Source: a virus. Taken from it: 64,000 bases of DNA. How positions within the stretch are numbered: position 1 is the first letter of the stretch; each line of letters starts with the position of its first letter. The stretch spans positions 1 to 64,000 of IMG/VR virus record IMGVR_UViG_3300024980_000003; one strand, written 5' to 3'. The position numbers and the translations under genes were made by a program. This document shows, piece after piece, positions 7,149-58,455 of the stretch. The notes beneath the pieces are model-generated. The model did not search any database, was not told the DNA's origin, and saw nothing but the letters and a program-made list of their open reading frames with translations.

Positions 7149-7195
7149 GCGTATAACCTTGCGTATGATTAATATTGATGTATAATTATACGCAT
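7147..7195. promoter_or_regulatory. Divergent promoter and operator of RHH gene and tnpB
   Basis: ATGCGTATAA (7147-7156) and TTATACGCAT (7186-7195) form a perfect inverted repeat, with a third copy of the core, GCGTAT, at 7161-7166. On the plus strand TTGCGT (7159-7164) and TATAAT (7181-7186) lie 16 bases apart and form a good sigma-70 promoter for tnpB. Operator sites overlap it and both ATGs. Confidence 0.65.
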
Positions 7196-8327
7196 GATGA
7201 TACAAAAATCCTATAAATTCAAGTTCTACCCAAATGCTGCGCAAGCCGAACAGCTGCAAAAAGAATTCGGCTGTGCGCGGTGGACATGGAATCGTGGATT
7301 GATTGAACGGGATTATGCGTATTCTCAATGGGGCGTTAGCCTGGGTTCTTTGCATGACATTGGAAAGAATATAAATCAGTACAAGAAGAATGATTATCCT
7401 TGGCTAAGTGATGCAACATCGAGCGTTATTCAGCAAAAGCTAATCGACCAAGATAAAGCGTTTAATAATTTCTTTAAAGGTCGGGCAGGTTTTCCAAAGT
7501 TCAAAAAGAAAAGCCATGCTCAAAGCATCCGCTATACGCTTGACCAGCGACAGGTTTTAAACAATTACCGGTCTGGTGAATTGTTAAAGCTGCCAAAATT
7601 GGGCGAATTAAAGATTAAATGGTCACAAGTCCCAGGCGGCATACCCAAGATGGTCACGGTATCGAAGTCGGCAAGCGGATGTTATTTCGTCAGCTTCATG
7701 TGTGAGGTCGAGCAAGACTTAAAACCGATGACCGGCAAGGTGATCGGTATTGATGTTGGTATCAAGGATGTGGTCGTAACCAGTGACGGCTTTTATTCAG
7801 GCGCGCCCAGGTTTACCTATAAGTACGCACGGCAATTGAAGAAAGCGCAACGGGTTTTAAGCCGTAAGAAAAAAGGCAGTAATGGATTTAAGAAGCAACG
7901 GATTGTGGTAGCAAAGATTCACGAAAAGATTGCAAACAGTAGAAAAGATTTTTTGCACAAAGTGACAACCAAGCTTGTGTCTGAAAATGATATTTTGTTT
8001 TTGGAAGATTTAAACGTTTCCGGGATGCTCAAGAATCGTAAGCTATCAAAAGCGGTTGCGGATGTGGGCATTTTTGAACTCAATAGGCAAATCGAGTACA
8101 AATCTCAGTGGTACGGCAAGCAGGTTGTTAAAATCAGCCGTTGGGAGCCTACGACGAAGAAGTGTAGTTCATGCGGGAATATTCGCATTATGAAATTATC
8201 GCAACGTACTTATGAGTGCGAATGTGGTTTAGTAATGTGCCGCGATCTTAACGCAGCGCATAATATTAAGGCGGCGGGGAACGTCGTTATGAGTGGAGCC
8301 GTACACCAAATTGATAAAGCCGCATGA
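7194..8327 (+). CDS. tnpB: TnpB RNA-guided nuclease (IS605 family)
   Basis: 377 residues. TnpB uses an RNA made from the element's right end to cut matching DNA. The RuvC-like site appears complete: Asp in GIDVG (about 186), Glu in FLEDLNV (about 278) and Asp in CRDLNAAHN (about 355). The zinc finger is CSSC and CEC, the second pair being one residue shorter than the usual CxxC. An N-terminal OrfB_IS605 domain (SYKFKFYPNAAQ) is intact. No tnpA nearby. A divergent RHH gene may control it. Confidence 0.92.
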   Translation: MMIQKSYKFKFYPNAAQAEQLQKEFGCARWTWNRGLIERDYAYSQWGVSLGSLHDIGKNINQYKKNDYPWLSDATSSVIQQKLIDQDKAFNNFFKGRAGFPKFKKKSHAQSIRYTLDQRQVLNNYRSGELLKLPKLGELKIKWSQVPGGIPKMVTVSKSASGCYFVSFMCEVEQDLKPMTGKVIGIDVGIKDVVVTSDGFYSGAPRFTYKYARQLKKAQRVLSRKKKGSNGFKKQRIVVAKIHEKIANSRKDFLHKVTTKLVSENDILFLEDLNVSGMLKNRKLSKAVADVGIFELNRQIEYKSQWYGKQVVKISRWEPTTKKCSSCGNIRIMKLSQRTYECECGLVMCRDLNAAHNIKAAGNVVMSGAVHQIDKAA

Positions 8328-8445: not shown

Positions 8446-8500
8446 ACGGGTGGTTTTGTGTAATCTATTATGCTCCCAAAAAATACCCAGAAGAACAATC

Positions 8501-9406
8501 ATGGATAAAAATACGCTTGCCACAATCACTGGCGACATACAACCTACAGCCTGGTCTGCGTCTGCATTAAAGAAAATGCCGCTTGATGAACTGATTAAAA
8601 AATATGTGTTGGTTGAGCATACGCAATGGTACATGAAATGTATGTTGCTTTACGCTATGAGATTTATATTAAAGTCGAATCAAGAATACGGTAAGGTCTG
8701 CCAGCAATTACGCGAGGACGGCATTTGCCATGAGGATCAAGGGACGATGAACCGTTACGTAAACTCAGGGATTTATCTTGAGAAGATGAAAATATCCGAC
8801 CTTACTAAAGTCGGGTTCAAAAAACAGTTTGTCTATGACTTAGCGGCTCCAATCAATGCAGATATTTCAGAGTCCGTCACTCATGAACTTCGGCAGATAC
8901 CAATCGAAGATAGGCGCAAGCTAACAATCGAAGCAGTTCGAGAAATGATAAGAAAGGCTAAACAGAAACTCAATCCAGCACTTGAGTACGACAGCGTGGT
9001 GGCAACTATTGAAAAAATGCGTGATGACGATCCGGCGCATTATCATGAAGGTGCTATTGATCTTATTAAGCAGTATGCCGAAGAAAGCAAGCAAAATATT
9101 TCTCAGATTGAATCTGAATTGATTGATCGCGGCATAGTCGTGCCAGAACCAGCCCAAGCCCAGCAAGCGGTCTCACGCCTGATGCAGTCCATACTTGATG
9201 AAGAACCGGACACCGTCAAGCCCATGACGCGGCGCAGAGAGCTTATATTAGAATTGTCTAATATGGATAATGGCGCCGTATCGGATGATGATATTCTGGA
9301 AGATTACGCACTACTGGACAAGAGCTATCGGCGCACGTTGTTGAAGCTGGCAGAGCTGCATAATAATAGAAAAAACATCATTCAAGATGCTATCTATAAG
9401 AAATGA
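8501..9406 (+). CDS. Hypothetical protein, DNA-binding or regulatory style
   Basis: 301 residues, soluble, helix-rich and charged. The N-terminal part (DELIKKYVLVEHTQWYMKC, then REDGICHEDQGTMNRYVNSG) could be helical recognition modules, and the C-terminus (ILEDYALLDKSYRRTLLKLAELH) is a likely coiled region. ATG 8501 is used; it lacks a strong ribosome site. It lies between a tnpB element and the structured RNA region and could be cargo. I recognise no family. Confidence 0.6.
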   Translation: MDKNTLATITGDIQPTAWSASALKKMPLDELIKKYVLVEHTQWYMKCMLLYAMRFILKSNQEYGKVCQQLREDGICHEDQGTMNRYVNSGIYLEKMKISDLTKVGFKKQFVYDLAAPINADISESVTHELRQIPIEDRRKLTIEAVREMIRKAKQKLNPALEYDSVVATIEKMRDDDPAHYHEGAIDLIKQYAEESKQNISQIESELIDRGIVVPEPAQAQQAVSRLMQSILDEEPDTVKPMTRRRELILELSNMDNGAVSDDDILEDYALLDKSYRRTLLKLAELHNNRKNIIQDAIYKK

Positions 9407-9423
9407 TGTGTTATAATTACCAC

Positions 9424-9587
9424 CTGTGCAGCGGCGTGGAAGTTACTGGGAATGCTCGGTGACAACGTAGACACGCAGGTTGGGCTGGGGAAACCGTAAG
9501 TGAAAGGCTTACGCGATTGCCGATGGTAAGACGATACACGCCAGCCGACAAATCGGATAGTCGAGAGTAACGTATCGACCTGCACAG
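9424..9587 (+). ncRNA. Structured RNA region, 5' domain
   Basis: CTGTGCAG (9424-9431) pairs with CTGCACAG (9580-9587), closing a domain with inner hairpins such as GTAAG/CTTAC and CCGA/TCGG. No convincing ORF covers 9407-10100. Together with two tRNA-like elements downstream and a terminator at 10041-10072 it suggests a single transcript of about 640 nt. Confidence 0.55.
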
Positions 9588-9604
9588 TTTCATTCTTATG
9601 AGTG

Positions 9605-9722
9605 CCAACAAAAGATACTTTCAATACTCAAACTTCGCTATCAACATTGAGTGGTAGGGAATCACAAAGCTCCTAACTTAGTGGGAGTCTTGGGTAATAG
9701 ACTAAGTGGTATCTTTTGTTGG
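9605..9722 (+). ncRNA. Helical domain competing with tRNA-like acceptor 1
   Basis: CCAACAAAAGATAC (9605-9618) is perfectly complementary over 14 bp to 9709-9722. The last five bases of the right strand (GTTGG) are also the start of the tRNA-like acceptor at 9718, so the two foldings exclude each other. Confidence 0.58.
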
Positions 9723-9844
9723 TGAAATGCGTAGTTGCGATACGCTAGATTTTAAGTTGACTTTGAGACAACGCTAAGAGACTCACTGTCGTAAAGATTC
9801 TTGATATTGAACAAAAAAAGCAGGGATCGCATCCTGTCACCAAC
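9718..9844 (+). ncRNA. tRNA-like element 1
   Basis: Seven-bp acceptor GTTGGTG (9718-9724) with CACCAAC (9838-9844), a D-arm-like hairpin GCGTA/TACGC, and a T-arm-like hairpin GCAGG/TCCTG with loop GATCGCA. The middle is much longer than in a tRNA and no clear anticodon arm is seen. No CCA follows. Not expected to be an ordinary tRNA. Confidence 0.55.
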
Positions 9845-9849
9845 AACCC

Positions 9850-9927
9850 ACACGCATGGCGATTGAGTACCGATAACAAGCCCTATCATGGAAATGTTAT
9901 GAAACGTCATACAGTCGCCAGCCGTGT
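9850..9927 (+). ncRNA. Helical domain preceding tRNA-like element 2
   Basis: ACACGCATGGCGA (9850-9862) pairs with TCGCCAGCCGTGT (9915-9927) at 11 of 13 positions. As in the module before it, the right strand runs into the GTTGGTG of the next tRNA-like element, overlapping it by two bases. Confidence 0.5.
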
Positions 9928-10027
9928 TGGTGTAATGCGTAGGCGAGACGCAATGAGTGTAGTCGTGATGCATGTAAATGCTCCAGCTTTAATAGCGACA
10001 ATGCCGGGATCGCATCCGGCCACCAAC
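9926..10027 (+). ncRNA. tRNA-like element 2
   Basis: Acceptor GTTGGTG (9926-9932) with CACCAAC (10021-10027), D-arm-like TGCG/CGCA hairpin, T-arm-like GCCGG/CCGGC hairpin and a middle with nested GTCG/CGAC and GCAT/ATGC pairs. Its T-arm loop shares GGGATCGCATCC with element 1, so the two are related copies. Confidence 0.58.
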
Positions 10028-10040
10028 TTCAAATCAATCT

Positions 10041-10072
10041 AAGCCTAAGCGCCTATCTCGGTGCTTGGGCTT
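10041..10072 (+). terminator. Terminator after the structured RNA
   Basis: AAGCCTAAGC pairs with GCTTGGGCTT around a 12-base loop and is followed by TTGTTG. It would end the transcript that contains both tRNA-like elements. Confidence 0.6.
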
Positions 10073-10109
10073 TGTTGTCCGCGAATCATTGATAGCAGTG
10101 GGTAAGGAA

Positions 10110-10304
10110 ATGGAAGAAATGAAAGACAAGTTAATTGCATCTGGAGTTAAAAGCATAAATAGATATGGTTATCCCGGATGCAACAAAGACAACATACTTA
10201 CCGATCAGATTTACAAAGCTTTCTTTGCTTCGATGCTAAAGGATAATAAAGGCTTTGGCGCTGATAAGGCGATAGATGAATTGCTGTCCGCATTAGAATC
10301 GTAA
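10110..10304 (+). CDS. Hypothetical protein
   Basis: 64 residues, soluble, with NRYGYPGCNKDNIL followed by helices. AAGGA lies just before ATG 10110. Its place after the structured RNA and before another small gene suggests accessory cargo. No recognised domain. Confidence 0.58.
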   Translation: MEEMKDKLIASGVKSINRYGYPGCNKDNILTDQIYKAFFASMLKDNKGFGADKAIDELLSALES

Positions 10305-10352
10305 GCTCAATTGGGCTTTGTTGCGTCTAAATAACAACCTCATAGGAATCTC

Positions 10353-10589
10353 ATGGCATCGAACCTTATAAATACAGAAGCACTCGAAAAACATTTGATG
10401 GCATCTTTAAACCAAGCCATGACCGAAGCGGCAGAGCCAATCATTCAGCAAGCGGTAAAAGATGCTGAGGCCGCGATAAGGAAACGTCTTGGCGTTATGT
10501 TTGTCGGTATGCTTAATCATTCGTTTGATATACAGCGTGATGGACAGGACTTACGCATTTTAATTCGCCATGATGACAGGCGACAATAA
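10353..10589 (+). CDS. Hypothetical protein
   Basis: 78 residues, mostly helical and Ala-rich (QAMTEAAEPIIQQAVKDAEA), C-terminus basic. AGGAATCTC precedes the ATG. No membrane segment or known motif. Confidence 0.58.
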   Translation: MASNLINTEALEKHLMASLNQAMTEAAEPIIQQAVKDAEAAIRKRLGVMFVGMLNHSFDIQRDGQDLRILIRHDDRRQ

Positions 10590-10658
10590 CCTATTGACTT
10601 ATACCGCCCGTTAGTTCACCCTAGATACTCATTTAAAATAACAACAAGAAGGTGAATC

Positions 10659-10895
10659 ATGAAATTACTAATCGCAGCGGTATTATTTTGCACATCATCC
10701 CTAGCACTGGCTTGGACAGATGCGGAATTCGCCCAGGAGCTACAACAAATGCAGCAACGCGCACAGCAGAACGAGGCGAGAATCCAGCAATGGAACGCAG
10801 AAGATCGGCTGAATCAGCAGCAGCAACAGATTCAGCAGTTACAACAACAGCAAGTGCAGCCGCAACGGTATCGGAAAGAAAATCCGTTGCGGTAA
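10659..10895 (+). CDS. Small secreted Gln-rich protein
   Basis: 78 residues. A signal peptide is clear: KLLIAAVLFCTSSLALA with likely cleavage before WTDAEF. The mature part is very rich in Gln (QQMQQRAQQNE and further poly-Gln), with the look of a coiled or disordered periplasmic protein. AAGGTG lies 6-11 bases before the ATG. It may be a lysogenic conversion gene; function unknown. Confidence 0.65.
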   Translation: MKLLIAAVLFCTSSLALAWTDAEFAQELQQMQQRAQQNEARIQQWNAEDRLNQQQQQIQQLQQQQVQPQRYRKENPLR

Positions 10896-10934: not shown

Positions 10935-12194
10935 ATGACAAAAACGATACGAAAAGCCTTTAAATTTAGGTTAAAAATTACACCTGAAACCGATGAAAAA
11001 TTAAATAATTTCGTTGGTGGATGTCGCTTTGTCTGGAACAAGTCGTTGGCTCTGAATCTGGATAGATTAAACAACAAAGAGCCTATTTTGTGGTATCAGG
11101 AGCTTAATTTTTGGGCAACAATTTGGAAGCAGTCTAATGAATACGGTTTTCTAAGCACTGTTCCTTCTCAGGCACTACAGCAAAAACTAAAAGACCTGGA
11201 TAAAGCGTTCAGTGATTGCTTTGATAAGAATCAGCCATTAAAGCGTTGCCCTGTATTCAAGAAAAAAGGACTATCCGATAGCATACGATTCCCTCAAGGC
11301 TTTAAGATCGATCAAGAAAATAGTCAGATTTTCCTGCCCAAAATAGGCTTTGTGAAATATCGCAATAGCCGCAAGGTAATTGTAGAGCCTAAGAATATCA
11401 CTGTAAGCCGCAAAGGTAAGCACTGGTACGCTTCTATTCAGGTTGAGTACGACAAAATAGATATGCCTCATAAATCAACGTCAATCGTTGGTATTGATAT
11501 GGGCGTTAAGCAGTTCTCTACTCTATCTGACGGCACTATATACCAGCCATTAAATAGTTTTAAAGGTAAAGCTGAAAAGTTAGCCAAGCTTCAACGAAAG
11601 CTAAAAAACAAAAAGAAATTCTCAAGTAATTGGAAAAAAGTAAAAACAAAAATAACAAAGTGCCATGAAGAAATAGCCAACGCTCGAAAAGATTACCTTC
11701 ACAAAGTATCAACTGAAATCTGCGAAAACCAAGCCGTGATAGTCGTTGAAGATTTGAAGGTAAAGAATATGAGCAAGTCGGCAAAAGGCAACCATGAAAA
11801 GCATGGAAAAAACGTTGCTCAAAAATCAGGATTGAACAAGTCAATTCTCGATCAAGGGTGGGGCATGTTTTTTCAAATGCTGGACTATAAGCAAGCCTGG
11901 AATGGTGGCATGGTTCTCAAAGTGCCTGCGCACCATACAAGTCAAACTTGCCCATGTTGCCAGCATGTAGCCAAAGAAAACAGACTCACACAAGCTGACT
12001 TTGTTTGTGTCGATTGCGGCTACAGCAATAACGCCGATATAGTTGGAGCATTGAATGTATTAAGCCGGGGACACCGGCAGTTAGCCTGCCTAGCGAGTGG
12101 TGAAGTAATACCACCGGCAACAGGAACCAGTGGTAAGCGGCGACGCAAGATCACTTCTGAGAAATCAGGAATCACCATTCCTTTAGGGCGGTGA
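10935..12194 (+). CDS. tnpB: TnpB RNA-guided nuclease, second and unrelated copy
   Basis: 419 residues. Domain order is N-terminal OrfB_IS605 (KAFKFRLKITPE), RuvC-like core and C-terminal zinc finger. Catalytic residues are Asp in GIDMGVKQF, Glu in VVEDLKV and Asp in NNADIVGALNVL; zinc Cys are CPCC and CVDC. It differs strongly from the tnpB at 7194, so the two came from separate insertions. The basic tail after the finger (GKRRRKITSEKSG) is encoded by DNA that also forms the 3' guide-RNA scaffold. No tnpA is present. Confidence 0.9.
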   Translation: MTKTIRKAFKFRLKITPETDEKLNNFVGGCRFVWNKSLALNLDRLNNKEPILWYQELNFWATIWKQSNEYGFLSTVPSQALQQKLKDLDKAFSDCFDKNQPLKRCPVFKKKGLSDSIRFPQGFKIDQENSQIFLPKIGFVKYRNSRKVIVEPKNITVSRKGKHWYASIQVEYDKIDMPHKSTSIVGIDMGVKQFSTLSDGTIYQPLNSFKGKAEKLAKLQRKLKNKKKFSSNWKKVKTKITKCHEEIANARKDYLHKVSTEICENQAVIVVEDLKVKNMSKSAKGNHEKHGKNVAQKSGLNKSILDQGWGMFFQMLDYKQAWNGGMVLKVPAHHTSQTCPCCQHVAKENRLTQADFVCVDCGYSNNADIVGALNVLSRGHRQLACLASGEVIPPATGTSGKRRRKITSEKSGITIPLGR

Positions 12195-12244: not shown

Positions 12245-12415
12245 ATGACCAATAAAACAGATGGCAACTATTTCCTTACCATGCTAATGGTTTGCGTAGC
12301 TCCACCTGTTCTGTTCCTGCAATGGCTATTCCTTGGTGATAAGTTCGGTCATGGAAAAGCCATTGTCTTTGTGGTGACTATGTTCCTGTTCGGGTCGGCC
12401 TTCTTCTTTAATTAA
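12245..12415 (+). CDS. Small membrane protein
   Basis: 56 residues with two hydrophobic segments (TMLMVCVAPPVLFLQWLFL and AIVFVVTMFLFGSAFFF) joined by GDKFGHGK, typical of small phage-borne inner-membrane proteins. AAGGA lies 9 bases before the ATG. Its last codons overlap the end of the convergent giant gene. Confidence 0.62.
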   Translation: MTNKTDGNYFLTMLMVCVAPPVLFLQWLFLGDKFGHGKAIVFVVTMFLFGSAFFFN

Positions 12416-15400
12416 TTGAAGTAAGGGTGCGACCTTTCCACCGCCATGCGTGACACTTCGTTAGATCGTTGCATCAGTGCGTTAATCCTATCGCGCTTAT
12501 CAGTAGCACTTAGATTGCTGCGGTAAATTACATCCACCTGCGCCCTGAGTCTGCTCAACTGCTTGCCGGAAGCTTCCAGTTGACGGCGCTTGCTCAACTT
12601 GTCGGCATTATCGGTCATTAGCTCGTTGGCCTTGTCGATATTGCCTTCTTTCTTGTACGCGTTAATCGTCTTATGGATTTGATTGACTTCGTTCAGCATA
12701 TCGTAAAACTCAGTACCGTATTTGGTGTGCAGCGTGGGACGCTCCTGATAGAACGCTTTCACGACCGGCAAACTGTCAATCCTCATCGCTGGCTGATCCG
12801 GCATCCCCGATAACTGCCTAACCATCATATCCGATGCGCCCAAGGCGTACATGCCTAATGCGCCAAGATAGCCATGCAGTAAATGCTCCAGACGTTTGGG
12901 CGATGCACCTAATGCTTCCGGCAAGGACGCGCTTAACGCTCGCATGGTTTCGCTAGTGTATTCGTTATAACGTGCGCTCGGCAATTTGCCTTCGTCGGCC
13001 ATGCCTTCAATCGCCCTGCCGGTAAACATATCCTTGTTGGAGTACAGTTCGATGAACGGTTTGAATAGCTGCGGTACTGGATTGAAAGCCAAGGTATCGC
13101 TTGCGCCATGCCCCATGCGTTCGGCGTAAGTTTTCAAACTGTCTTTGCCGATCAACGCTCTCGCTGAACGCTCAGGAACAGTGCCAAAGATCAAGCCTAA
13201 CTCGAACGGTTTAGGTATCCTAAAGTGTTGATTTCCAAAGAAGAAATGCCAGTAGGTGTCTTGATCCCACGGTTCCAAAGCTTCGTAATCATCGTTATCC
13301 GAATTGAGTGCCAGCAATGCCAAAGAGAACATGGCAATCGATAAGCCTTTCGCCAGAATCATTTTCCGCGCTTCCTTGGTCTGACCTGCTTTCGCCAATC
13401 GATACAGGCCAACCAATCGGGCATTGAAGAACGGCAGCATGTCACTCATGGCCCGGATCAGCGTAAACGATCCCTGCATCGAAAAGTCCATCAGGTCTTT
13501 GGCTTCAAACAGGTATTTGGCTTTTTCTGCCCCCGCGCGTTTAGCGTTTTCAAGAATCGCTTCACGGCTGGCGTTTTCAATCGCATCGCCCACGGACCGG
13601 TACATTTCCCAATACTTCTTCGGGGTGTCGAGAATGGAATCTTTAAAGCCTTGAACGTCCTTAATGCCGCGCCTTCTCAGTGCCGCATCCATCGACTCCC
13701 TGGCCGCATCCGGGTTGCTGTAGTTGCCATAGCCGCCCTGGAATGACGCCCCGGCAAACATCATATCGACATAGCCACCTTCTTCGTTGAAAGACTTAAT
13801 CGCCCCATGAATCGAGTCAACACCGAGCTTAAAGCCTTTTTCTTCGGCAATCGTCCAGGAGTGCATGGCGTCACGGATAAAGTTTCTGGCCATGAACGTC
13901 GGGTCGGCGGTCACAGCACCGGTCAGCAAATGCTTCATGTAGCGCATTGGCTTGAAGATGCCGCCGAACGGGATTTGATTTACGGCCGTCAATGAAGTCA
14001 GCAGCATGGCATCGTTGACTTTGTAGTATTCCGACTTACCATCACGCATAACCCTAACCACATCGGGATCAGTCGGCGCTTGCATGGCCCACATCTTGGC
14101 AATACCACTCGTCAAATCAGACGGCATGGCCTCGACGATTTCTTTCGGCAAGCCCGATTCCAGCATCAGTTTTTTAACCTGCTCCTTGGGGATCAGTGCC
14201 GCCTTTAATTCAACTCTCTGGATAGCCTCGACAAAGCGCGAGCCTTCCAGATTATTCAGCGTTTTGTTCAAGGCGTCGTTCTTCATCGACGCATCGATCA
14301 AATGCGCCCAATTCTGCATCATGTTGCCGAGTGGGTCGCTCATCGGGTTATCGCCGCCTTTCAGCATTTTGATACCGGAGGTTTGGTGGGTCAGTCCACC
14401 CTTACCGCTTGGGCCTGATTTCTTGCCTTCGATCAGCCGGTAAAACGGGATATAGTCGGCGCTCTCGAACAGCTTACGCGCTTCCGCATCCACCAGTCCG
14501 GCCTCTTGCGCCAAGTCCAGCACCGAGCTATTCATGGCGGCGATGTCATCAGCCACACCTTGATAGTCGTCTTGTTCCAATTTCAGCAAGGCATCGATTT
14601 CGTCACGACTGAAATTGTTCTCTTTGCCTTCCTTAAACAATCGGTCTGCTCTGCGCCCGACCATCCAGGCAGTGAAGTTTTCCAAGTCATCCTTGACCGG
14701 CTGCAATAGCTCGGCAAACGACTTGCTGCCGTCTTTTTTCTGGATAATGCCGCCCTCCCATTTCGGCGCACCATGCAACAGCAACGCTTGCATCGTTGAG
14801 CTTGAGCCGGTTGATAGTCTTGCACTGATATAGCCTGATACCGAATGCGCCACATCGCCGAGGATTTCTTTCTCTGCGCGCTTAATGCCGATGAACTTAT
14901 CGAATATGCCCTGCTCCAGTTGCGGCTTCATTTCATCCCATTTCTGCCGGATGGCTTGAACATTAGCTTTCAGCCCGAGACTGATAATGTCGGTGATGGC
15001 TTGAGATAGCGTTTTCTTCGGGCCGAGTCCGGCCTTGCGTTTAGCTTCTTTGATAACATCGCTATCGACAGCCCTACTATACTTCACTCCGGTTTTATCG
15101 CCGCCCTTGGCTTCATAGTCATAGGCATCACCATACCAGCGTTCGGTTTTGGGACGGTTTTTATTCTTGGCGTCTTTGCTCAGTCCTACTTTGTCGCCGC
15201 CGTAGTTCTCGTAATCGTAAGCGTTGCCTTGCCATTTGTCGGCGTTTCTCGGTGCAGGAATATGATTCATTTCCTTGCCATTGAATAGCACAATCACATC
15301 ACTGTCTTGAATGTCTGCGGTGGCGCTTGGTGGCGTGGATTTGCGTTGCTCGGCGGTTAGTTCTTGTCGGGCTTGTGTGTTTCTTGACTCAACCTCTCCA

Positions 15401-18400
15401 GCTAGTCTTTTGTATTGCTCATGTGCCGTTAATGTGTTTTCTCTGGATAAGATGTTGCGCCGATCTTGCTCAAGATCAATATATTCTTGGTTCTCTGGGA
15501 ATTCACTTAACTTATCTAGCAATTCAAAATAACTTTCGGTCTGATCATTTGGCACATCATCCCAATTTAACGCTCTGCCTCTAGGCGTGTCTTTGCCATA
15601 GGTATCCTTTATTTTGATAAAGTCACGATTCTTCTTCCTGACCAGATTACCAAACTCAGGATTAGCGTCCATTAAGCCGAGTATCTTTTTATCGAGCGGC
15701 CTTCTTAGCTCATCGGTAATGTCTTTGTCTCTGAACTGGCTAGGACTTCCGCCAGTTGCAAAGCCTTCAATGCGCTGAATGCCATGCTGTATTTCATGGA
15801 GCAATACGGACATCATATTTTCTTTGCCGAAACTGCCCTCGTTCAAATGAATCAGCTTATCAGTGGCGCTGTAATTTCCTTCGGCCCCCAAGTCTTTAGT
15901 AATCAATACCCCGATTTTGCCGAGTTCTGGATACGCTTCAAACAGTTTCGGATGGTCGATAAAATCACTCAGCCTGTGCAAGCGTTTGCCATTCAGCGCC
16001 CAATCATGAAAGCTGTCGCCCCATGACGCATCGCTATCATCGATTTCAAAGCGCCACTTGCCGTCTACGCCTTTAAACCAGCCTGTTTCCTGCCGTACCG
16101 TTTCAGGATTATCTCCTGCTTCGATGCGTTGCTGTGCGCTGGATAGCTGGTAGGTGTCGGCAGTCTTGGCGTTTTGTCCGGCAAAGCTTTTGAGTATGCC
16201 GTTGCCCGTACCAGTGCCATTAACCTTTGCTCCGTATTTCGATAGCGCCGTTAAATCAGCTGGCGTGAGTGACTTGATAAATCCAAGGTCAAGGCCATTC
16301 CTCACCAAAAACGCCCGAATCGTTGCCACTAAATCGGCAAAGGTCTTTTTCAACAGGCCGGTGAAGGAGTCGGGATTCTGCGACCAGAGGGATACCATGT
16401 AAGCGCGGAATTCCGAAGCTTGATCTTTGACCGGCGTTTCTGCGGCCATTACGCGCTTGTAGGCTGCGAGTTCTATCGCGCTGCCAATACCTTTAGCGGC
16501 TCGGTCAAAACTGCGCTGTAGCTGTGCTTCAAAGCGGTCTATGGCGGCTTTGACTAGCGGGTCTTTGGATTCTGAGCGGTGAAGAAGCTCGTGACTAAGA
16601 ACGGACGACAGGTTGTTCTTGTTGAGCATATCCGAAACCAAATAAAGCTGATCTCGTTTCTCATCGTATAGGGCCTCTACGCCAGACATGTTGCTAGACT
16701 TCTTGATTTCTCCTGAATTAAAGTCTATATTTATTGCTGACGCTAATGGTGTGGCTTTAGACTTCGTGTCGAGCAAGGCATTATGACCTGCGGCTATGCC
16801 ATTAGTCGTCTTTCTATTTGAATAAAAAGTGATAATAGACTCTTTATTTCCTTTTGCCGATACAACAACTTTAAATCTAACCCCACCTGAATTAAGCGTA
16901 TAAATATGCTTTTGTCCTGCAATATCAAGTTTGCCATCACGAACTACTTTGCCTAGATCAAGAATCTCATTTGCTGTTATATAGCCTTTTTTACCGCTAA
17001 AATGATCGAGTAAGATATGCGTCTTACCAAATCTCTCATGCCCTTGTGATAAATTAACAAATTCCTTTACATGCTCAAGGTCGCTTTTTCTGATCTCTGA
17101 GCGAATTTTTGTATCAGTGATAACATCATAAATACCTTTCTGTTCTTTAGATAGACTTGATGTTGAGCCTATTTCTTTTATAAACCCATCAATTAAAGAA
17201 GCTATTTTGGCTTGCGTATATTTTGTTGGCTTAATCCTTGACTCTAACGCAATTCCACGCTCTTGCAGATGCTTGGGCAAATCCTCAACCGTTTGCACGA
17301 TATTCAAAATCCCCGCATCCACCAGCTTATTCACGCGCTTAGGCAATAGCTTCTTGATGTCGGCTACGGTGCTGCCGGTGGTGGGTTGGGATTTGCTGGC
17401 TTTAATGTCCTGTTTCCAATCAATGCCCTTTCTTTCAAGAAGTCGCCTTGCTGCCTGAGTTGCATCATTATCAGGATGTCCATTGGCCGTGGCAATCGTA
17501 GCTTCTCTGGTGGTTGGCGGCCTTATCTTTCCGTTTGCCACCTTATCTGCATATTCTTTTCGCAGTTCACCCCTACGTATTATTAGTTCGTGATCTTTCT
17601 TGGCTTGAGCTTGAACCTGTCTTCTGTGCGTATTAGGACTTTTACGGTTAGAACTCATGTGTAACGCGGCGTCGCCAATATCCTGTCTGGATGCACCATT
17701 TGACGCTAGATATTCTTCCTCTGTCATTACAGGAATATCACCCTGCTTCTCACCAGTCACCTTGGCTAGGCTTGGTTGGGATGGTTCGGAAGTAACCGCC
17801 GATGGTGCGCTTCGTTCGAGTGGCGTCAGCGGTGTTGTTTGTTCGCTTATCCTTTCTTCCCCTTCGCCCGATACATCGGATTCAGCATCGCCGCCTGTTG
17901 CTGGCGTTTCATCTCGGCCTGTATTTGCTCGTCGGTTTGGTAGTACTGTGCTGGCTTTTGGGGATTGGGTTTGGTCATTTGCTTGTTGCCTTGGTCTTGC
18001 ATATATTACTGATTGATCGTCTTTCGATGTGGCAATAACATCATTTCCACTTACCTTTAACGCTCTCGTTAAAGAAGCGAATCCAGCCGATGACAAGCCG
18101 CTAGGGAATGTTAGCTTTACAGTGCCTTCTTTATCCGGCGTGGAAATAGCGTGGATTCCGTATTCATCAAGAATCGCCTTGCCAACTTCGTGCGCTTCGA
18201 CCGATTTATCTCTAACAATTAGCCTGTTTGAGCTATAATTATCAGCAACACGGCCCTCATCGGTATTGCTTATTTTTGCAATATTGCTTGAGGGTTCTTT
18301 TTTTGTGAGCACATCAGAATCTTGTACAGAATCCGCTTGATTAAAGTCAACGCCCCTTACCCTGTCAGCGCCAAATCTGCCTCTTGCCCATCCAGTTATA

Positions 18401-21171
18401 TCTTTAATGGTATCGCGCTTTGAATTGATTTCGTTTATTTCGGATGGAGTAAAGCCTTTGCTGGCTAAATTATCGCCAGCTGCCACTTTCGGCGCATGAC
18501 CAAACCCACCCTCTACCGGCACCACATGATGCGTGGCTTCGCTGATGTTGGGATAGCCTTTGCTCTTTAAGGCAACCTCGGCTGATTTTGCCGTCTTGAA
18601 GGGTTTGTTTTGGTTGCTTAGGGTTGGTTTTAATTCCCCTTCAATGCTTTCACCCAGTCCTCCGAGTAGTCTGGATGAAGTATTTGTACGCTGCATCGCG
18701 TTTTGCGATTGTGTAGCCTCGCCATTTGCAGTCTTTGTTTTTTGTTGGGTCTTGTTTTCTTGGACATTTGCTTTAGCCGATGTTTCCGTCTTGAAGGGTT
18801 GGTTTTGGTTGCTGAGTGTGGCTACATTTGCGTTATCCGCACCTGGTGTAAGTTGTCCTTTATTTTGCTGAACTGTATTTTTCTGAACTTGTGCCGCTGG
18901 TTCTGCTCCGCTCGCCAATGCAGGATTTGATTGACGATCATTGGGAATCTGTATTTGTTCACTCGTAGGTTTAACCGTCGCTTTGTCAGATTCTGCGCTC
19001 GGCGTTTGTGTCGATATAGCTTCATTTTTTATATCCTGTTTAATCGGCGCTGCATCTTCATCGGATGGGGTGCTTAGGGTTGGTTTAGCATTACCTCTGA
19101 CTGAATCAATTACTTTCTGAGCAACGCTATTTTTGCCATGTGTGCCGTATTCATCACCAAGCACTGACTGAGAAAACACATAGGCAATATAATCATCCTT
19201 GGTCATGCCTTGCGGTATTCTTGCATCTTCACTATTAGCAAAAGATTCAATGCGTTTAATTTCGTCGCCCAGCTTTTCAACTGTTAAGTCGCCGTTAGTT
19301 AAGCGTTGAACTAACTCGGCTGTTTTTCGTGCATTTTCTCTGTGCTGCTTAACGCGATTATTGCGCTTGCTTTCATTGATTGCGCCAATAGACATGGATT
19401 CGCTATTGGAATAAGGATGGTATCTATCGTCAAAATCGACAACATTCTTATTGTCTTTGTATTTCTTATTGGCGAATTCATCAGATTTAACCGTTTCTGA
19501 TTCAGCGTGTTTTGTTAAGGCCGAGACAATGGCATCCGTTGACGCTTTTCTTTGCGCTGTTTCTTTCTCTGCGCCAGCAAACCAATCCTCATTGAATAAG
19601 TCTGTAGCGTCACCTAATTGACCAGCATTGCCGTTTCCTGCCTCGCCTGTAGCTGACACTCCATCAGCATTATCGTATTCTGTTGCGCCTCGATGATCTG
19701 CTGGGCGAATAGCATCGCTTGCTGCCAGTCCTGTTGCGTTGGGTTTTCCTGTGTTGGGTATATCGGTTGTAACATTGTTATTCGTGTTCGGTTGAGTGGT
19801 CTTGGTTGATGGCGGTTGTTGTGCTTTGCGCTGTTCGGCTAGGCGTTGGTTGAGCAGGTCTTGCGGAGTTAATTCATTGCTTGCTGCTGTAGCTTCCAGA
19901 TTATCCGCTTCGCCATTAATGCCGACGCGTCCAGCATTGCCTCGTAATTTTTCTGTTGCATCATAAATAGGGTTATTTTCCTCGGGCTCGATAGCGATAT
20001 TATATCCATCTAAACCACCTTCGCCAGTAGCCAGAGTATCAGACGGTCTAAATGGCTGTTTCTGTTCATCTGATATAGATTCACTTGCGGATATTTCTTG
20101 TTGTAGCCCTGATCGTTCCCCATTGTTTCCCCTTATGTCATCGGTTGTTGGTGTTTGAATAACAGGCGCTTTCGCGGCGGCTTTGGATAATGGGCTAGAG
20201 ACCGCATTGACACCACCACCCATTAAGCTTCCCGCTAATGAGCCTTCGACAAAGTTTCTACCCATGCCTTGCGTTACGGGCTTATCTTCGGCCAAGTTTT
20301 GCAGACCTGTTTCAGCTATCGACTGCAAGCCTTCCTCAATCGGGCCTTCTTGTATCGCGCCGCCGATAACACGTCTAGCCAGCGATTGATTCACATCGCC
20401 CATACCAGCGCTGACTCCGCCTGCCGCTATCGCATCAATATCAGCCAACGCAATATCATCTAAGCCAAATCGGTTAGCAATGCGATTGGTAATGCGATTG
20501 CTTTGATTGCCGATTAATGCGCCCGAAAAGCCTGTGCCTGCCGCTGCTAATGCCGCTATCTGTGGGTCAACGCTCTCGTCAATGTTCGCCATTGACTGGC
20601 CGGCCATGATCGCACCTTCACCGACATTACCGGCTAAGGCGGCACGTTTGGCTACTTCCGCCGCCGTTCCGGTTTTCGCTAAGGCATTAAGGCCCGTTGC
20701 AGTCCGTCCTAATGCGCCACCCGCATACATAGAGGGCAATGACTCGACAACGGTTCCCATGATAGCGCGTGGATTCGTAGCGTACGCCTTTGCAACATCC
20801 AGGGCATTCGTGTTGGGATCATCCCACACCTGATTGACATTCTGCCGCGCTTGCTGCATTGCCGGTGAATAAGCGTTATCTGCATCTTTAGCCCATTGGC
20901 TAGGCTTGAATCCAGTGGCGTTACCAATCGCATCGGTCGCCCTATCGAATGGCCGGTTAATCCCCAATAAGCTAGGCTGAATATCGGCCAGTCCTGTGAT
21001 TGCGCCGGGGATCTGCATCACGCCCTTGCCAAGGCCGACTAAGGTATCGTTGATAATCCCCTTGTTGCCTTGGCCGGATTGCCCTGAAATAGGCTTAATG
21101 TCAGACAAATCAATAGCGGCACTTTTATTGATCGGCTGAATATCCGATAAATCCATAAAATCATCTGACAT
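12412..21171 (-). CDS. Giant polyvalent virion protein (2919 residues)
   Basis: Probably packaged in the capsid and ejected into the host. It fits the large polyvalent proteins described for phages and conjugative elements, which string together effector and protective domains. Visible parts: a Gly/Ala-rich N-terminal half up to about 330; long low-complexity Gln/Ser/Thr stretches to about 1250; a nuclease-like segment ending VKFKVVV-style (FKVVVSAKGNKESIITFYSNR, residues about 1434-1455, reminiscent of Barnase-EndoU-type domains); a zincin-like SHELLH at about 1526; a second zincin-like LLHEIQH at about 1788; and a C-terminal 900 residues like domain LPD38, with a hydrophobic segment near 2610. 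Last gene of the leftward late operon. Confidence 0.8.
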   Translation of the reverse strand: MSDDFMDLSDIQPINKSAAIDLSDIKPISGQSGQGNKGIINDTLVGLGKGVMQIPGAITGLADIQPSLLGINRPFDRATDAIGNATGFKPSQWAKDADNAYSPAMQQARQNVNQVWDDPNTNALDVAKAYATNPRAIMGTVVESLPSMYAGGALGRTATGLNALAKTGTAAEVAKRAALAGNVGEGAIMAGQSMANIDESVDPQIAALAAAGTGFSGALIGNQSNRITNRIANRFGLDDIALADIDAIAAGGVSAGMGDVNQSLARRVIGGAIQEGPIEEGLQSIAETGLQNLAEDKPVTQGMGRNFVEGSLAGSLMGGGVNAVSSPLSKAAAKAPVIQTPTTDDIRGNNGERSGLQQEISASESISDEQKQPFRPSDTLATGEGGLDGYNIAIEPEENNPIYDATEKLRGNAGRVGINGEADNLEATAASNELTPQDLLNQRLAEQRKAQQPPSTKTTQPNTNNNVTTDIPNTGKPNATGLAASDAIRPADHRGATEYDNADGVSATGEAGNGNAGQLGDATDLFNEDWFAGAEKETAQRKASTDAIVSALTKHAESETVKSDEFANKKYKDNKNVVDFDDRYHPYSNSESMSIGAINESKRNNRVKQHRENARKTAELVQRLTNGDLTVEKLGDEIKRIESFANSEDARIPQGMTKDDYIAYVFSQSVLGDEYGTHGKNSVAQKVIDSVRGNAKPTLSTPSDEDAAPIKQDIKNEAISTQTPSAESDKATVKPTSEQIQIPNDRQSNPALASGAEPAAQVQKNTVQQNKGQLTPGADNANVATLSNQNQPFKTETSAKANVQENKTQQKTKTANGEATQSQNAMQRTNTSSRLLGGLGESIEGELKPTLSNQNKPFKTAKSAEVALKSKGYPNISEATHHVVPVEGGFGHAPKVAAGDNLASKGFTPSEINEINSKRDTIKDITGWARGRFGADRVRGVDFNQADSVQDSDVLTKKEPSSNIAKISNTDEGRVADNYSSNRLIVRDKSVEAHEVGKAILDEYGIHAISTPDKEGTVKLTFPSGLSSAGFASLTRALKVSGNDVIATSKDDQSVIYARPRQQANDQTQSPKASTVLPNRRANTGRDETPATGGDAESDVSGEGEERISEQTTPLTPLERSAPSAVTSEPSQPSLAKVTGEKQGDIPVMTEEEYLASNGASRQDIGDAALHMSSNRKSPNTHRRQVQAQAKKDHELIIRRGELRKEYADKVANGKIRPPTTREATIATANGHPDNDATQAARRLLERKGIDWKQDIKASKSQPTTGSTVADIKKLLPKRVNKLVDAGILNIVQTVEDLPKHLQERGIALESRIKPTKYTQAKIASLIDGFIKEIGSTSSLSKEQKGIYDVITDTKIRSEIRKSDLEHVKEFVNLSQGHERFGKTHILLDHFSGKKGYITANEILDLGKVVRDGKLDIAGQKHIYTLNSGGVRFKVVVSAKGNKESIITFYSNRKTTNGIAAGHNALLDTKSKATPLASAINIDFNSGEIKKSSNMSGVEALYDEKRDQLYLVSDMLNKNNLSSVLSHELLHRSESKDPLVKAAIDRFEAQLQRSFDRAAKGIGSAIELAAYKRVMAAETPVKDQASEFRAYMVSLWSQNPDSFTGLLKKTFADLVATIRAFLVRNGLDLGFIKSLTPADLTALSKYGAKVNGTGTGNGILKSFAGQNAKTADTYQLSSAQQRIEAGDNPETVRQETGWFKGVDGKWRFEIDDSDASWGDSFHDWALNGKRLHRLSDFIDHPKLFEAYPELGKIGVLITKDLGAEGNYSATDKLIHLNEGSFGKENMMSVLLHEIQHGIQRIEGFATGGSPSQFRDKDITDELRRPLDKKILGLMDANPEFGNLVRKKNRDFIKIKDTYGKDTPRGRALNWDDVPNDQTESYFELLDKLSEFPENQEYIDLEQDRRNILSRENTLTAHEQYKRLAGEVESRNTQARQELTAEQRKSTPPSATADIQDSDVIVLFNGKEMNHIPAPRNADKWQGNAYDYENYGGDKVGLSKDAKNKNRPKTERWYGDAYDYEAKGGDKTGVKYSRAVDSDVIKEAKRKAGLGPKKTLSQAITDIISLGLKANVQAIRQKWDEMKPQLEQGIFDKFIGIKRAEKEILGDVAHSVSGYISARLSTGSSSTMQALLLHGAPKWEGGIIQKKDGSKSFAELLQPVKDDLENFTAWMVGRRADRLFKEGKENNFSRDEIDALLKLEQDDYQGVADDIAAMNSSVLDLAQEAGLVDAEARKLFESADYIPFYRLIEGKKSGPSGKGGLTHQTSGIKMLKGGDNPMSDPLGNMMQNWAHLIDASMKNDALNKTLNNLEGSRFVEAIQRVELKAALIPKEQVKKLMLESGLPKEIVEAMPSDLTSGIAKMWAMQAPTDPDVVRVMRDGKSEYYKVNDAMLLTSLTAVNQIPFGGIFKPMRYMKHLLTGAVTADPTFMARNFIRDAMHSWTIAEEKGFKLGVDSIHGAIKSFNEEGGYVDMMFAGASFQGGYGNYSNPDAARESMDAALRRRGIKDVQGFKDSILDTPKKYWEMYRSVGDAIENASREAILENAKRAGAEKAKYLFEAKDLMDFSMQGSFTLIRAMSDMLPFFNARLVGLYRLAKAGQTKEARKMILAKGLSIAMFSLALLALNSDNDDYEALEPWDQDTYWHFFFGNQHFRIPKPFELGLIFGTVPERSARALIGKDSLKTYAERMGHGASDTLAFNPVPQLFKPFIELYSNKDMFTGRAIEGMADEGKLPSARYNEYTSETMRALSASLPEALGASPKRLEHLLHGYLGALGMYALGASDMMVRQLSGMPDQPAMRIDSLPVVKAFYQERPTLHTKYGTEFYDMLNEVNQIHKTINAYKKEGNIDKANELMTDNADKLSKRRQLEASGKQLSRLRAQVDVIYRSNLSATDKRDRINALMQRSNEVSRMAVERSHPYFN

Positions 21172-58349: not shown

Positions 58350-58455
58350 GTTGGTGTAGCTCAGTGGTTAGAGCTGGGGGCGGCATGCCTAGTAGTCAAT
58401 TAACTAGCGAACCCTGTAAGTAGACTCAGCGCCGGTTCAAGTCCGGCCACCAACA
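58350..58455 (+). ncRNA. tRNA-like element 3
   Basis: Acceptor GTTGGTG (58350-58356) with CACCAAC (58448-58454), a canonical D-arm (GCTCAGTGGTTAGAGC) and a canonical T-arm (GCCGGTTCAAGTCCGGC). Between them, instead of a 17-base anticodon arm, are 55 bases with a GGCATGCC palindrome and a CTAGT/ACTAG hairpin with loop AGTCAATTA. No CCA is encoded. It is closer to a true tRNA than the elements at 9.7-10.0 kb. Confidence 0.62.

Follow-up and report, generated by a model that had tools for sequence, protein, structure and literature searches.

The tRNA-like domain of tmRNA consists of an acceptor and a T-arm, the remainder of the molecule being inserted at the position of the anticodon arm. STnc100 (Rfam RF02076) has been until now an orphan sRNA, of which we know no description as a tRNA-like RNA; its consensus runs UGGUGAAU, a hairpin, an insert and a hairpin flush on CACC. 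Published reports describe both STnc100 and its relative PasD as expressed sRNAs borne by phages (PMC12370729, PMC13192938). The bacterial Y RNA YrlA (RF02553) has a tRNA-like domain (Chen 2014, as cited in PMC7790460) and has been proposed to inhibit a tRNA nuclease competitively (PMC7790460). Finally, GOLLD and ROOL are large phage RNAs with one conserved architecture, located near tRNAs, and the linker of GOLLD can itself contain tRNAs (PMC12286853). The modules analyzed here share with tRNAs the acceptor, the D-arm, the T-arm flush on the acceptor and the contact between D- and T-loops, but have neither anticodon arm nor 3' CCA. Their topology is that of the tmRNA domain, from which they differ by the presence of a D-stem and by the lack of a CCA and, in our phage, of a tag. 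Their locus resembles those of GOLLD and ROOL in being a large phage RNA near tRNAs but is modular and exchangeable; neither RNA was matched there in Rfam, even at E ≤ 10, and the link with GOLLD raised by the original prediction is thus not supported.

We analyzed a window of 64,000 nt from an IMG/VR virus record of 64,014 nt and studied the locus located between the ORFs 8450-9406 and 10110-10304; all RNA features given below for this phage are on the plus strand. As originally predicted, no recognizable protein gene accounts for 9407-10109, the ORFs present there being without any protein family match. Searching Rfam with cmscan, at gathering thresholds and at E ≤ 10, gave no match at the locus beyond chance-level ones, and ARAGORN called no tRNA in 9407-10109. 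The folding of the whole stretch was better than that of shuffles (z -5.1), and we recovered the predicted structured RNA with two tRNA-like modules, a long helix before each of them and a terminator in last position, the modules being backed by covariation. The stretch 9424-10079 forms a non-coding unit that likely has a promoter and a terminator of its own. An extended -10 element, TGTTATAAT (9409-9417), was read directly 7 nt ahead of 9424, where pairing begins in the 5' domain; the closest relative, L235, whose flanking genes are ~90% identical, has TGATATAAT at this position. A generic promoter scan listed none at the locus, and the promoter at 9409-9417 is a putative one. The terminator (10041-10079), also read directly, has a 13-bp stem, AAGCCUAAGCGCC/GGUGCUUGGGCUU, with a U-rich tail, and is 96% conserved in L235.

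The 5' domain (9424-9587), with the closing stem CUGUGCAG/CUGCACAG, folded better than shuffles when taken alone (z -3.3), in agreement with the closed domain initially proposed, whereas the comparative support concerns only the modules. It contains a 5-bp hairpin (9560-9579) flush on the closing stem in T-arm fashion and is possibly a third, divergent module; no homologue of it was found, L235 having an ORF in its place. In the first long hairpin (9604-9723), GCCAACAAAAGAUAC (9604-9618) pairs with GUAUCUUUUGUUGGU (9709-9723), overlapping the 5' strand of the following acceptor; the region 9597-9724 is 89% identical to L235. Module 1 (9716-9846) is composed of an acceptor (9716-9724/9838-9846), a D-arm (9729-9745), an insert (9746-9819) and a T-arm (9820-9837). 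Its acceptor includes the predicted GTTGGTG/CACCAAC (9718-9724/9838-9844) and is longer than first noted, with 9 bp, and its D-loop GUUGCGA and T-loop GAUCGCAU could pair through UGCGAU/AUCGCA. The second long hairpin (9850-9927), obtained by folding, pairs ACACG-CAU-GGCGAUUG (9850-9865) with CAGUCGCC-AGC-CGUGU (9912-9927), a helix that recurs elsewhere with compensating changes (GGGGAUUG/CAGUCCCC and GAGGAUUG/CAGUCCUC). Module 2 (9926-10027) has the same GTTGGTG/CACCAAC acceptor (9926-9932/10021-10027), a D-arm (9936-9952), an insert (9953-10002) and a T-arm (10003-10020), with a D-loop AGGCGAG and a D/T-loop pairing, GCGA/UCGC, of 4 bp only. The T-arm GGGATCGCATCC is identical in the two modules, as noted at the outset, and the inserts of the window measure 50-74 nt.

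A second unit is present in the same phage (58272-58454), read from its fold and from an Rfam tRNA match of 46.7 bits with an insert. Its acceptor, GUUGGUG/CACCAAC (58350-58356/58448-58454), is that of both modules, its D-arm and T-arm (58431-58447) are canonical tRNA arms, and a 56-nt insert replaces the anticodon arm; ARAGORN called no tRNA for it. Here too, a hairpin, CAACAAGGAUUGA/UCAAUCCUUGUUG (58272-58284/58341-58353), overlaps and competes with the acceptor. The relative lacks this unit at the corresponding place, where only the downstream end of the unit matches.

A blastn search with the T-arm sequence matched two phage non-coding gaps, and a D-arm pattern built from the common layout matched at least 120 viral stretches, as well as 80 stretches in a one-genome-per-species collection. 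In the comparison set of 172 non-redundant modules, the acceptor (with inner GGUG/CACC) is followed by a D-arm; a hypervariable insert then stands in for the anticodon arm, and the T-arm that comes next lies flush on the acceptor. A 30-nt core query occurred in 228 phage records; among complete E. coli genomes it was found in 1326 of 5426, with 1829 places in total, of which 834 lay on plasmids. The carriers include P1, HK633, CUS-3, PY54, phiKO2 and many Klebsiella and Pseudomonas phages, and most of the confirmed hosts belong to the beta- and gammaproteobacteria. Matches in odd taxa, namely Bifidobacterium (L217), Bradyrhizobium (L220) and Rhodospirillaceae (L209), had no T-arm partner and are probably due to chance. 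Two matches of the T-arm pattern (L004 and L005), located in apparent coding stretches, are due to chance. We did not find this family in Rfam or in the open-access papers searched, and it has apparently not been described so far, at least in the open-access literature; in the records examined, the module has no annotation of its own. The P1 genes plp and upl (L127 2155-2724), annotated antisense to RNA modules, are probably spurious.

When modules were picked by their D-arm alone, a T-arm flush against the complementary strand of the acceptor was present within 250 nt in 101 of 120 phage-contig stretches, among the matches listed, and in 64 of 79 from genomes, against 1.1% and 1.6% in the respective shuffled controls. 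The motif complementary to the D-loop was found in the T-loop in 99/101 of the former (among the matches listed) and 62/64 of the latter. We then aligned 70 cores with their inserts removed: 93.3% of the cells were paired and both sides had changed in 16 of the 24 pairs, percentages that are biased upward for the acceptor and T-stem, whose pairing was used in collecting the modules, whereas the D-arm-only test is unbiased. In these cores, 160 cells carried a double change (50 in shuffles), and sliding the register made the fit worse in every case. The pairing between D- and T-loops, which was no selection criterion, also covaries (e.g., GCUGAU/AUCAGC vs UGCGAU/AUCGCA). The loops fall into classes, GGCUGA with UCAGC, GGCGA with UCGC, and GUUGCGA with GCAA or UCGCA, and loops from different classes do not fit each other; since class B was retrieved via the T-arm alone, its matching D-loops were unselected. 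A further solution, UGCUG with CAGCA, occurs in L235, whose D-arm is unrelated. An open search for all pairs of hairpins with kissing loops returned only noise outside the known class. The compensatory changes that alignments were expected to reveal in the proposed module stems are thus present, and we are confident in both the structure and the family.

Because the upstream hairpin often repeats the 3' strand of the acceptor, the 5' strand of the latter can pair in two ways. A strong helix between the upstream DNA and the stretch running into the acceptor was present at 104 of 156 non-redundant loci (15 of 156 after shuffling). The end of this helix peaks at -1 and -4, just before the acceptor, and at +7/+8, the end of the acceptor strand, and in the latter kind the upstream strand duplicates the 3' strand of the acceptor. 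Both helices of the locus (9604-9618/9709-9723 and 9850-9865/9912-9927) compete with the acceptor stems. Energies computed without the D/T pairing were, for the upstream helix versus the acceptor, -64.2 vs -61.0 kcal/mol in module 1, -57.4 vs -57.1 kcal/mol in module 2 and -67.3 vs -62.8 kcal/mol in the 58-kb unit; for the 51 modules in which a helix invades the acceptor, the median difference was 3.6 kcal/mol in favor of the upstream hairpin. The alternative pairing would, somewhat more probably than not, act as a functional two-state switch.

The comparison with L235 revealed exchanges between conserved flanks. This relative has an ORF of 66 codons where our locus has the 5' domain, followed by helix 1, which is kept (89%), by another tRNA-like element in place of module 1, with a different interior and an identical acceptor, and by a genuine tRNA-Met(CAU) in place of module 2, then by the same terminator. 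The locus is thus a cassette array and not one fixed RNA of 640 nt like GOLLD, so that the single ornate RNA initially proposed is not supported as an evolutionary unit. The inserts formed 148 clusters among the 172 modules and, in 32 of 39 pairs with the same insert, the downstream DNA was unrelated; it is thus the core, not the insert, that is conserved. Insert length varies from about 7 nt to about 160 nt or more, and the structure of the inserts barely exceeds that of shuffles (mean z -0.5). Considering the inserts as mimics of anticodon arms was too weakly supported to be retained (8 of 172 vs 2.8 in shuffles). One module insert (L100 522-740) holds a tRNA-Pro called by ARAGORN (581-666).

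We explain the locus best as a self-contained RNA gene, assembled from the cassettes of a phage tRNA array and encoding tRNA mimics that would act as decoys, a reading to which we give, as a whole, a probability of about one half. The mimics retain the tRNA elbow (acceptor, D-arm, T-arm and D/T contact), a free insert replacing the anticodon arm. The unit would be transcribed and processed: the upstream hairpin would form first and hide the acceptor, and the tRNA-like fold would then be permitted by a nuclease cut (possibly by RNase III, given a helix 14-25 bp long) or by strand exchange. The folded mimic would occupy a host protein recognizing the elbow, candidate targets being RNase P, the ribosome-rescue protein SmpB or a defence nuclease that cuts tRNA. 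We favor a decoy or mimic because the elbow is conserved, even with canonical tRNA arms as loops, while the length of the insert varies; taken separately, this function is proposed tentatively. The role of YrlA as an inhibitor of a tRNA nuclease offers a precedent. Both YrlA and the modules are RNAs with a tRNA-like domain, but the modules differ from it in sequence and in forming tandem phage cassettes; the best score of the YrlA model was 11.8 bits, elsewhere in the record (cut-off 69), and no Rsr/TROVE gene was found in the phage record. A single host target is not obvious since the carriers are diverse (P1, lambdoid, Taipeivirus and N4-like phages), and the decoy leaves the inserts of ~160 nt unexplained. 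As model phages carry the module, its role is directly testable.

The named RNA nearest to the modules is STnc100, which likewise starts with GGUGAAU followed by a hairpin, a variable insert and a hairpin flush on CACC, and which shares with them phage and prophage locations near tRNAs. The two window modules have this layout (GGUGAAAU and GGUGUAAU), but the sequences of the D- and T-hairpins differ, the T-loop of STnc100 having 5 nt, and the STnc100 covariance model gave no match at E ≤ 10 in 8800-10700. Both kinds occur in P1 (L127 2763-2882) and in Taipeivirus P01; the third P1 module scored 33 bits with the STnc100 model (E 6e-6, below threshold), and in Taipeivirus P01 a match above threshold lies within the module-bearing non-coding region. 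STnc100 would thereby join a family of tRNA mimics. This common architecture, the reported expression of STnc100 and Pas RNAs (PMC12370729, PMC13192938) and the recurrence of identical inserts in unrelated contexts are what one would expect of a regulatory sRNA on a tRNA scaffold, the frame only protecting and processing the RNA and the hypervariable insert pairing with mRNAs, as proposed for STnc100 and Pas sRNAs. Inserts of only 7-12 nt leave little guide space, however, the conservation of sequence is confined to the core, and the complementarity of the window inserts to their own phage did not exceed that of shuffles; we regard this alternative as rather unlikely.

The company of real tRNAs bears on a second alternative. 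A tRNA was located within 1.5 kb of the module at 24 of 168 loci, 23 of them on the same strand (7% for random positions), so that the likeness of context to large phage RNAs near tRNAs, suggested by the original prediction, is real. At several loci the spacing is only 2-7 nt; in phage ZC03 the module occupies a gap within a 10-tRNA array, in lambdoid phages it lies between Q and the holin gene, and in P1 it lies beside tRNA-Asn and tRNA-Thr, the real tRNA-Asn itself satisfying the module descriptor. Such positions, within tRNA arrays and the lambdoid Q-holin leader, would suit a processing punctuation, the tRNA fold being an RNase P-type cut site that separates RNAs in late or tRNA-array transcripts, with neutral inserts. 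The window unit, however, apparently has its own promoter and terminator and no other gene in its transcript, and we consider punctuation slightly less probable still than the sRNA. In Taipeivirus P01 (L130 1294-4020), an apparently non-coding region of 2.7 kb beside a tRNA cluster contains several modules, STnc100 and a tag domain.

Enteric modules are often preceded by an SsrA-like tag domain, unannotated in the phage records examined, as in P1 (L127 1587-1670), HK633 (L129 2252-2330), Taipeivirus P01 (L130 2274-2350), Bas80 and others; further tag domain loci are L131, L010, L019, L026, L036, L057, L060 and L175. It is formed by a conserved GACUUUGCGG...CAAAGAUAAAU and a 10-codon tag resembling the E. 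coli SsrA tag (e.g., ANDDVVLMAA, ANDEQFLAVA or ANDDLMMVAA), and the module hairpin strand ACAACAGGUAAGAGC comes after it. Exactly 10 residues are encoded at 81/81 distinct loci, and a class-A D-arm follows on the same strand within 1.3 kb at 31 of 72. Both observations are compatible with phage trans-translation, the enteric tag domain and module acting together as a divergent tmRNA whose tag would have been lost in our phage. Against it, the modules have no CCA end, the tag motif is absent from the window and the first search gave a tag in only 11 distinct module loci; moreover, tmRNA had no Rfam or ARAGORN match in the window, nor any Rfam match above threshold elsewhere examined, and this alternative seems improbable to us. 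For the mimic that we prefer, the tag domain hints at a place for the modules in ribosome rescue. A more specific version remains speculative and is about as doubtful as the sRNA: the tRNA mimic, with two states and an exchangeable insert, would interfere with ribosome rescue or tRNA surveillance in the host, or hijack them, and in enteric phages it would be coupled to the phage-encoded SsrA-like tag domain; if true, the modules would be a widespread, undescribed class of phage RNA aimed at these systems.

That the modules are decaying, functionless tRNA genes of a phage array, as real tRNAs close by and the partial tRNA contained in the L071 insert might suggest, is very improbable because the modules covary, with compensatory changes, conserved competing hairpins and a near-invariant core in beta- and gammaproteobacterial phages.

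Two IS605-type TnpB-like genes lie on either side of the RNA locus (window 7194-8327 and 10935-12194), and a single ORF of 2919 codons occupies 12412-21171 on the minus strand.
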